Source: a virus. From it: a stretch of DNA of 22,233 nucleotides. Under the pieces are notes generated by a model. That model saw only the letters and a program-made list of their open reading frames with translations, was not told the origin of the DNA and ran no database searches. The stretch is taken from positions 1-22,233 of IMG/VR virus record IMGVR_UViG_3300021371_000110. The stretch is one strand, 5' to 3'. The position numbers and the translations under genes are program-made. This document shows positions 9,612-22,198 of this stretch, piece by piece (positions within the stretch are counted from its first letter, which is position 1; each line of letters starts with the position of its first letter).

Positions 9612-11821
9612 TAGACTATTAACTCCGCTACTATTCCATTAATCTGTAAGCCTAGTGGCTTGTCTTGCTCAATGGTTACTTGTGGATTCCTATTGTACCC
9701 CAAAGTCTTTACTTCTTTTTTACCAGTAAAGCTTGAAGAAATAACATCGTTTGAGTTTACCTTCATTGAATCTGTAGACTTAACGTCAACAATAATATTG
9801 GTAATACCCCTTGAGGTTCCAGTCGAAGGCCCATTGCCCATGTTTGCATCTATTGGGTTGCTTATTAATTGTGTTGTAAACTTTTTACCTACATGGATAA
9901 TGTTATATCCAGAAGAAGAATATGATGATAAATCAATTCTATTTGCAACTCCGCTAACATCTTGAACAGTAAAATCACCTAAGTTTATAATTTCAAGAGT
10001 GCTGCTAACAACAGCATTAACTGTTACTACATCTCCATTTGTATATAAAGGGCCAACTGTTAATGCAGAAGCAAAAGCATATGCTGTAGCAAAATCTAAA
10101 TTAGGCATAGAAAAATTACAAAGCTGCAACTTGTTTTTAGAATCATAAACATTTGCATAAAGCTGATCACCTATAGCAATGACAGACCCAAACCTTCCAT
10201 CTATAGTTACCCTAGTCCAAGCTGCTTTTTTCTCAGCCCTATTGGACGTAAACAAAGCCAAGTCACCATTGCTTAAAGTAAATGCTGCGTAGGAATCAGG
10301 AAGATTAGAAAAACCATGAGAAACAGTAAGATACTTAGGATTATCTATAAGGTGAGATGCCAATGTAGATATAGTAGAAGCTGTATAAGCATCTTCTGAA
10401 TCTGAATATAAATACTCTCTAACATTTTTTCCGTTTTTTTGAACAAAAACAGTAGCACCATCGATAGAAGCAGGGGTAACAAAACTAGTGCCATATGGTG
10501 TTTGCATTCTTATCTGAGCGTTAGTCGGGGTAATTGCTTGGTTTAAGTAAGTAGGAACATATAGTTCACCAGTAGCAGTAAAGACTTGCAAGTCACGGTT
10601 AGAAATTAAATATCTAATTTCGTGAGAATCACCAGTAGCAGCAACCAAGTTAATTGAATCATCATCAGCGGCTTCACCTACATCGAAGTTAAAAAAGCTA
10701 CCAATCTTACTCATCCATATTGTATCAGGTTCAGATAACGTGCCACCAAAGCACAATCTGTTTTCATGAAAAGCAACAGCAGCTGGGTATCCTCTTACAG
10801 CAGAGAATGATTGCTCATCCCACGTTGTTGTTGGAGCATGGCAAGATATAGATACTTGCCCACCACCATCTTCACTGCTGCTTGCATTACCATCAGCTTG
10901 ATAGGTGTAAGTGTTATCATCTATTATTTCTCTAACCTGATCTGTAATATTTAAATTAGTAGTATTAATGCCACCTGTTGCAGCAGCATTTTGTACTGTA
11001 ATAGCATCACCTACATTAAAACCATGCTCAATCTGGGTAACTTCTACTATATTTGAACCCTCTCTTGTTCTAAGAGGATTTAAAACAGATAAACGAGCAA
11101 CAAGTGTATCAACAACATTGCCAGTTACTTCCGTTGCAGACGTATAACCAGTAATAGTTATTTCTGACTCATGATATCTTACAGTTGTTCCAACATGATC
11201 AGCCACCCAATAATCAGCACTTGTTGTTAAAGTAATACCAGTTCCACTTACAGCAGAAGGATCTAAAGTAACTCCACTAGCATGAAATTTTGAATATGGC
11301 TGATAAGTAACTTTATTATCTGCTCGCGCATCGAATGAATAAGTATCTATTTCAAAAGACGTAAGGCTTGTTCTAGTAAGTAATCTAGGTGCAAACAAAG
11401 GATGCGATATAAACATTACATCGCCATACTGAGCAGCTGTATATTCTTGTAAATAGTCTTCATCAAAAGGAAGTGCTGTTCCATCAACATCCTGAGTTAA
11501 TGTTGAGCGAAGAGTTAAGTTATTATTACTCTTCTGAAAACATCTTACTTTTTGATGCTCAATCGAAATTACATATTCTTCATTTGAATCAAAAACAAAT
11601 TTAAACAAATGTGATTGCTCATGACTAGAATCATAAGTCAAAGAATAAGTATATTGATGTTCTAAGCCGTGACGTTTTATTACAGCGCCCTCAGGTGTAA
11701 CAAGAAGGTTTTCTAATCGTTGAGCAGATTGATTGTAAACAGGTGAATCCGTTCTCATTATTAATGAGTCACTGATTTCTCCATACTGAAAGCTGTTAAT
11801 TGGAACTCTTACTTTCTGCAT
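9611..11821 (-). CDS. Tail tubular protein B (T7 gp12-like)
   Basis: The 736-residue product begins with KVRVPINSFQYGEISDSL and then AQRLENLLVTPEGAVIKRHGLEHQ, the hallmark start of podovirus tail tubular protein B (a segment on tail contact followed by N...ppGGv..RpGt). The body is rich in beta-formers and includes FHENRLCFGGTLSEPDTIWMS, another recurring block of this family. The length is close to T7 gp12 (about 790 residues). It forms the lower part of the short tail tube below tail tubular A. It lies between tail tubular A and the internal virion genes, with TAATG coupling on both sides, so translation of the three genes is probably linked. Confidence 0.92.
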   Translation of the reverse strand: MQKVRVPINSFQYGEISDSLIMRTDSPVYNQSAQRLENLLVTPEGAVIKRHGLEHQYTYSLTYDSSHEQSHLFKFVFDSNEEYVISIEHQKVRCFQKSNNNLTLRSTLTQDVDGTALPFDEDYLQEYTAAQYGDVMFISHPLFAPRLLTRTSLTSFEIDTYSFDARADNKVTYQPYSKFHASGVTLDPSAVSGTGITLTTSADYWVADHVGTTVRYHESEITITGYTSATEVTGNVVDTLVARLSVLNPLRTREGSNIVEVTQIEHGFNVGDAITVQNAAATGGINTTNLNITDQVREIIDDNTYTYQADGNASSSEDGGGQVSISCHAPTTTWDEQSFSAVRGYPAAVAFHENRLCFGGTLSEPDTIWMSKIGSFFNFDVGEAADDDSINLVAATGDSHEIRYLISNRDLQVFTATGELYVPTYLNQAITPTNAQIRMQTPYGTSFVTPASIDGATVFVQKNGKNVREYLYSDSEDAYTASTISTLASHLIDNPKYLTVSHGFSNLPDSYAAFTLSNGDLALFTSNRAEKKAAWTRVTIDGRFGSVIAIGDQLYANVYDSKNKLQLCNFSMPNLDFATAYAFASALTVGPLYTNGDVVTVNAVVSSTLEIINLGDFTVQDVSGVANRIDLSSYSSSGYNIIHVGKKFTTQLISNPIDANMGNGPSTGTSRGITNIIVDVKSTDSMKVNSNDVISSSFTGKKEVKTLGYNRNPQVTIEQDKPLGLQINGIVAELIV

Positions 11822-12405
11822 TAACTGCGCCTTTCAGCAATAAACCTCGATGTTGTTAGCTTGCGCGTTGTTTGCTGCTGAGAATCAATGTTCCTAGCCT
11901 TCATAAACAATGCCGCAGCTTTCTGCTCCATTAACTGGGCAAGCTGTGCATCTCTTGCTAAAGAGATTGCAAAGGAACCAGCAAGAGTAAATTCAATTGC
12001 TGTAGTAAAGTAAGAAGGCCAACTAGACTCAGGCGCTCTCTCAACATAATCTAAGACAACGGTATCGCTTGCATCCGCGTCACAGAATATTTTATTACCA
12101 TAGATATCGTACTTAATTAATGCATCATTAATAGTTACGCCTATTACCGTAACGCAAGATGCTGGAATGTGATAAGACGCTGAGAACCTACCCTTGGGAG
12201 CAGTTGCTAAGCGTGTAAGATTTATCTGAGTTGTAGCAAAACGCCAACGAAAAGAAGCAAATGAAGTCTGTATTATGTCTTCATATAAAGCATTAGCTAC
12301 TTTTGCTTCAGATGTACTAGCTGCAAAGTCGGTAATCCCGTCAGCACCAATAAGATATAATGCGTTGCTTGCAACTTCTAATGATGAATCAGCTACTCTT
12401 GGCAT
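11821..12405 (-). CDS. Tail tubular protein A (T7 gp11-like)
   Basis: The 194-residue product has the typical N-terminus of the gp11 gatekeeper family: SLEVASNALYLIGADGITDF, then an acidic stretch and ANALYEDIIQTSFASFRWRFAT. T7 gp11 is also about 196 residues. It binds under the portal and forms the head-tail interface on which tail tubular B assembles. The ATG at 12405 is supported by this family-typical start. It has no Shine-Dalgarno within normal reach; see the hairpin entry at 12406-12437. Its stop overlaps the ATG of tail tubular B. Confidence 0.92.
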   Translation of the reverse strand: MPRVADSSLEVASNALYLIGADGITDFAASTSEAKVANALYEDIIQTSFASFRWRFATTQINLTRLATAPKGRFSASYHIPASCVTVIGVTINDALIKYDIYGNKIFCDADASDTVVLDYVERAPESSWPSYFTTAIEFTLAGSFAISLARDAQLAQLMEQKAAALFMKARNIDSQQQTTRKLTTSRFIAERRS

Positions 12406-12437
12406 GTTGGTTTGGGGGCCGAAGCCCCCACTCCTTT
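12406..12437 (-). promoter_or_regulatory. Hairpin between Shine-Dalgarno and ATG of tail tubular A
   Basis: On the minus strand the stop codon of the 88-residue gene runs into AAAGGAG (12437-12431). A 7-bp stem TGGGGGC / GCCCCCA capped by TTCG (12430-12413) follows at once, then AACCAAC and the ATG. The linear gap from GGAG to ATG is 25 bases, too long for normal initiation. With the hairpin folded, only seven bases remain. The C(UUCG)G loop is an exceptionally stable tetraloop. No T-run follows, which argues against an intrinsic terminator. T4 genes 25 and 38 are known cases of a hairpin bridging such a gap. Confidence 0.8.
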
Positions 12438-12702
12438 AGGTATCAGTTGCGCTAATTGTATTACCATCAACAACGTCAACCGCAGTGGTTGCAACGCCGT
12501 TAAAGTAAGTCAATGTAGCTACTGGTGTGCCGCCTGATGCAGAAATAACGAAAATAACATCGTTAATATTTAGCATCGGGTGAGCATCTTCAAAGTAATC
12601 TTCTGCACGAACAACAGAAAAAGCATCTGTTGTAGTATAGTGCCACAAAGAAACACCAGAAGCACCACTCAAACGAGTAAGGTTTGCTGAATTATAAGCC
12701 AT
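12436..12702 (-). CDS. Conserved small protein downstream of capsid, 88 aa
   Basis: The ATG at 12702 lies eight bases after AGAGG, 11 bases beyond the capsid stop. The 88-residue product reads MAYNSANLTRLSGASGVSLW and then HYTTTDAFSVVRAEDYFEDA, with MLNINDVIFV in the middle and a beta-rich C-terminus. From memory, small proteins with this MAYNS.NL start and a 'YF.DA..ML...D.I.V' core are frequent directly after the capsid gene or in tail fibres of marine phages. A head decoration or virion-attached role is plausible from position, but no function is established to my knowledge. Its stop codon overlaps the Shine-Dalgarno of tail tubular A. Confidence 0.75.
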   Translation of the reverse strand: MAYNSANLTRLSGASGVSLWHYTTTDAFSVVRAEDYFEDAHPMLNINDVIFVISASGGTPVATLTYFNGVATTAVDVVDGNTISATDT

Positions 12703-12713
12703 GATTAATCCTC

Positions 12714-13523
12714 TTAGTTATTATCAAGGACTTCATAGATACCATCGCTATCAATAACGACAGCACCCATAGACATCATTGATGTGGCAAGGTGTGAGAC
12801 TTTTTCCGCAATATAGTTTACCTCAGTTTGAACATCAGCATTTACGCCAAGCCCTACTGAAGATGTATGGTACGAAAAGTTTTTACCACCAGCTACAGCA
12901 GACGTTGAAAAGATCTTGAATCCCAAGAACTCTTTCATTGTCATACCGCCAGCAAACGGCAAGTTCTGAGGGCCAACGTAATCAGAAGAAGCAAACTCGT
13001 TAATGTTAAACAAGTCAGCAAAACCAGAAGGAGACATGGCTAAGTAGCGTTGTCCGTCTTCTGGAACGTCAGCATTCCCAAGAGTTTCAAACAATGACAA
13101 CAAGTCAGCTTTGCTTACTGCGCTGCCAGTTGCACCAATCTGAGTTGCATTGGCACCAGCATCCATTGCTGTGATTAAGATTTCATCAGTCTTACGACCG
13201 AGTGCAGCAGCAGCAGATTGCGCTACAGCTTGACGCTCGTTAATGTTAATCTTTAAATCATCAAGCTTGTCCATATACTCTGAAGCATAGAAGTCAGCCA
13301 TTGTTACTTCAACATTGGTGTGCGCCAACTCCATTGGAGTTACGTTACCGTTGCGAGATTTAGTAGTTGCAGTGCCTTTTCCGATTACTTGGAAACGAGC
13401 AGTTGAACCTGTGACATTTGTCGTACGCACAGTGTTCCGTAACTTGGAACCCATACGCTGATACGCCATATGTACTTCAGTTTCAAACTGCTTGATAAAA
13501 GCTACGTCTATAGTATTAGCCAT
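12714..13523 (-). CDS. Major capsid protein
   Basis: The 269-residue product matches, by pattern, a capsid family common in marine podoviruses: FIKQFETEVHMAYQRMGSKL, then RFQVIGKGTAT, HTNVEVTMADFYASEYMDKL (about 68-87) and NERQAVAQSAAAALGRKTDE (about 95-114). This resembles the N-terminal half of HK97-fold coat proteins of the Phage_capsid_2 type; the Pfam name is from memory. It sits directly downstream of scaffold and the gp13-like gene and upstream of the tail tubular genes, as expected for T7-like order. At 269 residues it is shorter than T7 gp10A (about 345) but normal for this marine group. The ATG at 13523 follows TAGGA with eight bases spacing. Confidence 0.9.
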   Translation of the reverse strand: MANTIDVAFIKQFETEVHMAYQRMGSKLRNTVRTTNVTGSTARFQVIGKGTATTKSRNGNVTPMELAHTNVEVTMADFYASEYMDKLDDLKININERQAVAQSAAAALGRKTDEILITAMDAGANATQIGATGSAVSKADLLSLFETLGNADVPEDGQRYLAMSPSGFADLFNINEFASSDYVGPQNLPFAGGMTMKEFLGFKIFSTSAVAGGKNFSYHTSSVGLGVNADVQTEVNYIAEKVSHLATSMMSMGAVVIDSDGIYEVLDNN

Positions 13524-22166: not shown

Positions 22167-22169
22167 CAG

Positions 22170-22198
22170 AAGGGGGCATTAGCCCCCTTTTTTATTTT
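22170..22198 (+). terminator. Intrinsic terminator after the 175-residue gene
   Basis: An 8-bp stem AAGGGGGC / GCCCCCTT with loop ATTA is followed by a T-run (TTTTTTATTTT). It begins three bases after the stop codon. The six-pair core GGGGGC/GCCCCC is identical to that of the hairpin at 12413-12430, but here a T-tract is present. Confidence 0.9.

Follow-up and report, generated by a model that had tools for sequence, protein, structure and literature searches.

The window, that is, the whole stretch of DNA analysed here, is a contig of viral DNA, 22,233 bases long. Among sequenced phages, megablast found nothing close to it at the DNA level, and by portal and capsid protein the nearest isolate is Pelagibacter phage EXVC031P Hodr (63% and 50% identity). 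In the records of this phage and of Baldr (OQ414635.1/OQ414636.1) the locus tags are apparently swapped, with EXVC032PBaldr tags in the Hodr record and EXVC031PHodr tags in that of Baldr. On the minus strand of the window, the major capsid protein gene (12714..13523; PF19821, 7.6e-62; phrog_3437) is followed by an ORF of 88 amino acids (12436..12702; phrog_18004) and by a ttpA-like gene for tail tubular protein A (11821..12405; 194 aa). The product of the latter matches the profiles phrog_394 ('tail protein', 4.4e-36) and phrog_9239 ('tail tubular protein', 2e-6), and a homologue is annotated in Methylophilales phage MEP301.

Read along the minus strand, the junction between the 88-aa ORF and ttpA is ...GATACC-TAAAGGAG-TGGGGGC-TTCG-GCCCCCA-AACCAAC-ATGCCAAGAG.... 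The Shine-Dalgarno sequence (SD) AAAGGAG (12437-12431) overlaps the stop codon TAA (12438-12436) of the 88-aa ORF and lies 25 nt from the ATG of ttpA (12405-12403). Eighteen of these nucleotides form a perfect inverted repeat (12430-12413), with a 5′ arm TGGGGGC (12430-12424), a UUCG tetraloop (12423-12420) and a 3′ arm GCCCCCA (12419-12413), giving a hairpin of 7 bp with a 4-nt loop. The remaining seven, AACCAAC (12412-12406), connect the stem to the start codon. An earlier note on this DNA had described this arrangement, a distant SD and a perfect C(UUCG)G stem-loop filling all but seven of the 25 nt, and each element is found on the minus strand where it had been placed. The note had also taken AAAGGAG for the only ribosome site of the gene; it is the only strong SD, with an anti-SD pairing of -8.2 kcal/mol at the far site and of -1.7 kcal/mol at best within the last 20 nt before the ATG. 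A near SD is present at most other genes of the window. The upstream TAA is in frame with ttpA and separated from its ATG by 30 nt. A start of ttpA further upstream in this frame was considered and rejected, since the codons between TAA and ATG (AGG AGT GGG GGC TTC GGC CCC CAA ACC AAC) include no start codon.

The calculated folding energy of the hairpin is -13.6 kcal/mol at 37 °C and -17.0 kcal/mol at 20 °C, and within its sequence context the stem pairs have a probability of at least 0.97 from 15 to 37 °C. In the window's subclade, ViennaRNA also pairs the GG of the SD with the CC of AACC over a small internal loop, which could weaken initiation there; this CC is missing from most spacers outside the subclade. 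As the earlier note had remarked, no T-run follows the hairpin: its tail, AACCAAC, is free of T, the hairpin does not appear in the terminator-scan listing, and a search of Rfam gave no match above the gathering score. An intrinsic terminator at this place in the window itself was rejected for want of a U-tract. The window's other GGGGGC hairpin, AGAAGGGGGCATTAGCCCCCTTTTTT at 22168-22193 on the plus strand, is terminator-like.

Relatives were collected by protein-based searches in which a hairpin was not required, with the window TtpA, a distant relative, an alignment and a sister protein as queries. The window group and its sister clade together provided 108 distinct junctions; loci L077-L195, selected with a pattern that demanded a hairpin, were excluded from the statistics. 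The SD, the stem and a remainder of 6-8 nt are kept in every relative retrieved with the window TtpA and the distant relative, down to 54% TtpA identity. The hairpin ends 5-9 nt from the ATG in 77 of the 108 junctions, most often at 7 nt (45 junctions), otherwise at 6 (15), 8 (6), 9 (6) or 5 (5), and the remainder stays near 7 nt whether the stem has 7, 8 or 9 bp. All 77 carry an SD immediately 5′ of the stem (mean -6.6 kcal/mol) and none has one 3′ of it. In the window clade the nine nucleotides past the hairpin hold 2.1 T. The upstream stop adjoins the SD in nearly all relatives. As judged from these junctions, the bridged hairpin is present across a large group of marine phages and is kept by evolution. 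In loci L001-L038 the 3′ end of the small upstream gene occurs in several diverged versions next to a constant hairpin, a contrast that may reflect a boundary of recombination at the junction.

The stem was then compared between relatives, with pairs numbered from the loop outward and pairing set against 300 shuffles. Compensatory changes are found at pairs 6, 7 and 8. Pair 6 occurs as G-C and A-T; pair 7 is G-C or T-A in every distinct arm (100% observed against 50% shuffled, with 0/300 shuffles as high); and pair 8 occurs as A-T, T-A, C-G and G-C, again with 0/300 shuffles as high. Because shuffling leaves relatedness in, changes were also counted on the TtpA tree, giving at least 5 at pair 7 and at least 17 for pair 8 in its state. 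In part these changes add or remove an entire pair; whether they do or not, both arms alter together and the remainder stays at about 7 nt. Single loci illustrate further changes: a G-C to A-U change in the middle of the stem (L232) and an altered closing pair (L427, GGGGGGU/ACCCCCC). The loop varies, mostly at 4 nt (UUCG, UUUG, UUAG, UUUA, UUCU, UUUU, GUAA, GUUA, GCAA and GAAA). In L210, a hairpin of wholly different sequence and 9-10 bp still stands between SD and ATG; its TtpA is identical to that of L208, and the two unrelated hairpins both bridge. On these comparisons the stem is kept by compensatory double changes, by swaps between UUCG and GNRA loops and by one wholesale replacement. 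The test that the earlier note had proposed, an alignment of relatives showing the SD, compensatory stem changes and a remainder of 6-8 nt, is thus passed, with a remainder ranging over 5-9 nt around a mode of 7. A sequence-specific protein operator of the MS2 kind was also considered and was rejected in view of the free exchange of UUCG, UUUG and GNRA loops and the replacement of the whole hairpin in L210.

The arrangement is rare elsewhere. With up to 3 mismatches allowed, shuffling the window gives an expectation of 0.01 for GGGGGCTTCGGCCCCC, and an SD, a stem and 4-10 nt precede only 34 of the 64,183 internal ATGs of the loci. Across all loci, the architecture is found in 111 of 4,886 distinct ORF leaders; nearly all of the 111 belong to ttpA, and a part of them stems from the pattern-selected loci. 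A scan of bacterial genomes for SD, hairpin and ATG returned no more than 11 contigs, one of which encodes a phage ttpA. That one (L356, CAKZOI010000097.1) belongs to an Opitutae MAG and carries a ttpA of the window's group with a bridged site; it is likely a phage contig binned into that MAG.

Hairpins of the same type were also seen at other genes. In L077, L103, L109, L117 and others, the GGGGGCTTCGGCCCCC hairpin lies between an ORF of about 120 aa (MANNKPVGVAYSDP...) and one of 60-68 aa (MPIIYLRHP...), 7-9 nt from the ATG. An SD is absent in most of these cases and the spacer is rich in pyrimidines, which points to a second use of the hairpin. In L145 (around 2465-2510) and L166, an SD, a GGGGGCTTCGGCCCCC-type hairpin and 8 nt precede the ATG of unrelated small genes (MPSYTMINIES..., MPYSPQVISAV...). 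In L107 such a hairpin stands directly 3′ of a 314-aa ORF, without an SD.

The 31 junctions of the sister clade are built differently. Their hairpin ends 19-23 nt ahead of the ATG and leads into U-rich sequence (5.6 T in 9), so that a GC hairpin with U-tract, the mark of an intrinsic terminator, is nearly complete, and in all 31 the SD lies downstream of the hairpin. That the SD is back at normal distance when the hairpin leaves the ATG fits the prediction of a bridging function. On the TtpA tree, the switch between a bridged and a downstream SD occurred once within the window group and its sister, or twice when outgroups are included; the anticorrelation of SD and hairpin is therefore a strong contrast resting on few independent events.

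Hairpin-bridged ribosome sites have been described for two genes of phage T4, both named as precedents in the earlier note, and this parallel holds. According to PMC3014915, which cites Nivinskas 1999 and Malys and Nivinskas 2009, a hairpin shortens the distance between SD and AUG from 22 to 5 nt in gene 38 and from 27 to 11 nt in gene 25. As in the ttpA junction, the SD of these late structural or assembly genes is thus 22-27 nt from the AUG and an intervening hairpin reduces this to 5-11 nt; in both cases, too, close relatives retain the arrangement and more distant ones lack it. All the defining features of this kind of site that sequence can address are present at the window junction. Here, however, the phages and the gene are unrelated to T4 and its two genes, the stem is very GC-rich, UUCG and GNRA tetraloops are exchangeable, many divergent lineages share the site, a terminator occupies this junction in distant relatives, and the function is a predicted one.

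We consider it probable that 12437-12406 is a bridged, or accommodated, ribosome-binding site, possibly derived from a post-capsid terminator. The very stable UUCG hairpin would form in the mRNA and stay closed, looping out 18 of the 25 nt and placing the SD effectively 7 nt from the ATG of ttpA, so that the 30S subunit could then bind SD and AUG together. Model values for the window at 25 °C put the unfolding cost at about 3 kcal/mol for the SD, about 6 for the SD and start region with the hairpin kept, and about 23 with the hairpin included. According to these values, opening the hairpin would cost a ribosome about 17 kcal/mol more than bridging it. The architecture, its position, its conservation, the covariation and the switching of SD position with hairpin position suggest that the bridged site is used by ribosomes in vivo. 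The hairpin may also set the level of TtpA, for which the earlier note had proposed a setting relative to capsid.

Other hairpins occupy this junction in more distant phages. A typical intrinsic terminator is found between capsid and ttpA in Vibrio phages D105, CKB-S2 and 1.138, in Pseudomonas phage AF and in the fecal contig L365. In the fecal contig and the three Vibrio phages a normal SD comes after it. In phage T7 the terminator T-phi is located between genes 10 and 11, and we take the terminator of the Vibrio and Pseudomonas relatives to be at the corresponding position. In MEP301 and Hodr, as in the window, a hairpin separates ttpA from the small gene that follows the capsid gene; unlike in the window, it is followed by a normal SD in MEP301 and stands about 19 nt from the ATG without a clear SD in Hodr. 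Hodr-type pelagiphages (L274-L353) as a group have junction hairpins of unrelated sequence about 10-20 nt from the ttpA ATG and no evident SD. One of them, L350, has a GGGGGAG/CTCCCCC stem with a GCAA loop. Since the Hodr-type phages keep a junction hairpin without an evident SD, the hairpin of this junction has some role apart from SD bridging, a point that weighs against the bridged reading.

Such hairpins, with U-tract, with normal SD or with no SD at all, favour an account in which the hairpin is only a 3′-end or attenuation element of the capsid operon mRNA (an exonuclease barrier, a processing end or a weak terminator) and the SD is incidental. LUZ100, like T7, has a strong terminator right behind its major capsid gene (PMC10134795). 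The hairpins of these phages and of the window share the position between capsid genes and ttpA, the GC-rich stem and, in some relatives, the UUCG loop. In the window clade, by contrast, the U-tract is missing, the hairpin abuts both SD and start codon, and no SD lies behind it. An element of the 3′ end predicts neither the low T content, nor the missing second SD, nor a remainder of 5-9 nt across stem lengths, and we regard it as an improbable sole explanation. A second, older role of the hairpin beside bridging is possible.

It is quite unlikely, in our estimation, that the hairpin instead represses ttpA and that its translation requires the ribosome that finishes at the overlapping TAA rather than free initiation over the hairpin, a dependence also raised in the earlier note. 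This coupling would suit the position of the upstream TAA, which ends 29-37 nt from the ATG in 67 of the 69 relatives measured, and the potential of SD bases in some relatives to pair with the stem base or the spacer; translational coupling is also common at short spacings (PMC12548453). However, the stop does not track bridging, since it adjoins the hairpin in the sister clade too despite the normal downstream SD there, and a pure repressor could do without a remainder of fixed length. The two mechanisms, coupling and bridging, are compatible with each other. Finally, a readthrough or ribosome-bypass element fusing the 88-aa protein to TtpA, for which a stable hairpin just 3′ of an in-frame stop might speak, is scarcely credible and was rejected, as the spacing between stop and ATG breaks the reading frame in 19 of 69 relatives, many have tandem TAATAA, the window-group alignment shows no variation at M1-P2 of TtpA, and matching take-off and landing codons are absent.

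Returning to the bridged site, the junction terminators of distant relatives point to its descent from a terminator that lost its U-tract and the SD behind the hairpin. The bridge may have arisen in this way, although the TtpA tree leaves the direction between terminator and bridge in the window group unsettled and an unambiguous intermediate was not seen among the sampled junctions. After loss of the U-tract, any control of tail relative to capsid at this place would act in translation, not in transcription. The full scenario is offered only tentatively: a post-capsid terminator of a podovirus ancestor, at the T-phi position, would have become the split-SD bridge of ttpA. The dosage of capsid and tail proteins, once controlled in transcription, would then be controlled in translation, and the sister clade would later have reverted once.

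The hairpin-bridged ribosome sites found in the literature rest on the two T4 genes, and ttpA adds an unrelated case. Gene finders that demand an SD near the ATG score such starts badly. The natural variants of the ttpA site in stem length, loop and sequence, together with the sister clade and its normal SD, make spacing rules and hairpin tolerance directly testable. They also suggest that terminator hairpins and ribosome-site hairpins may interconvert at the boundary between capsid and tail genes.
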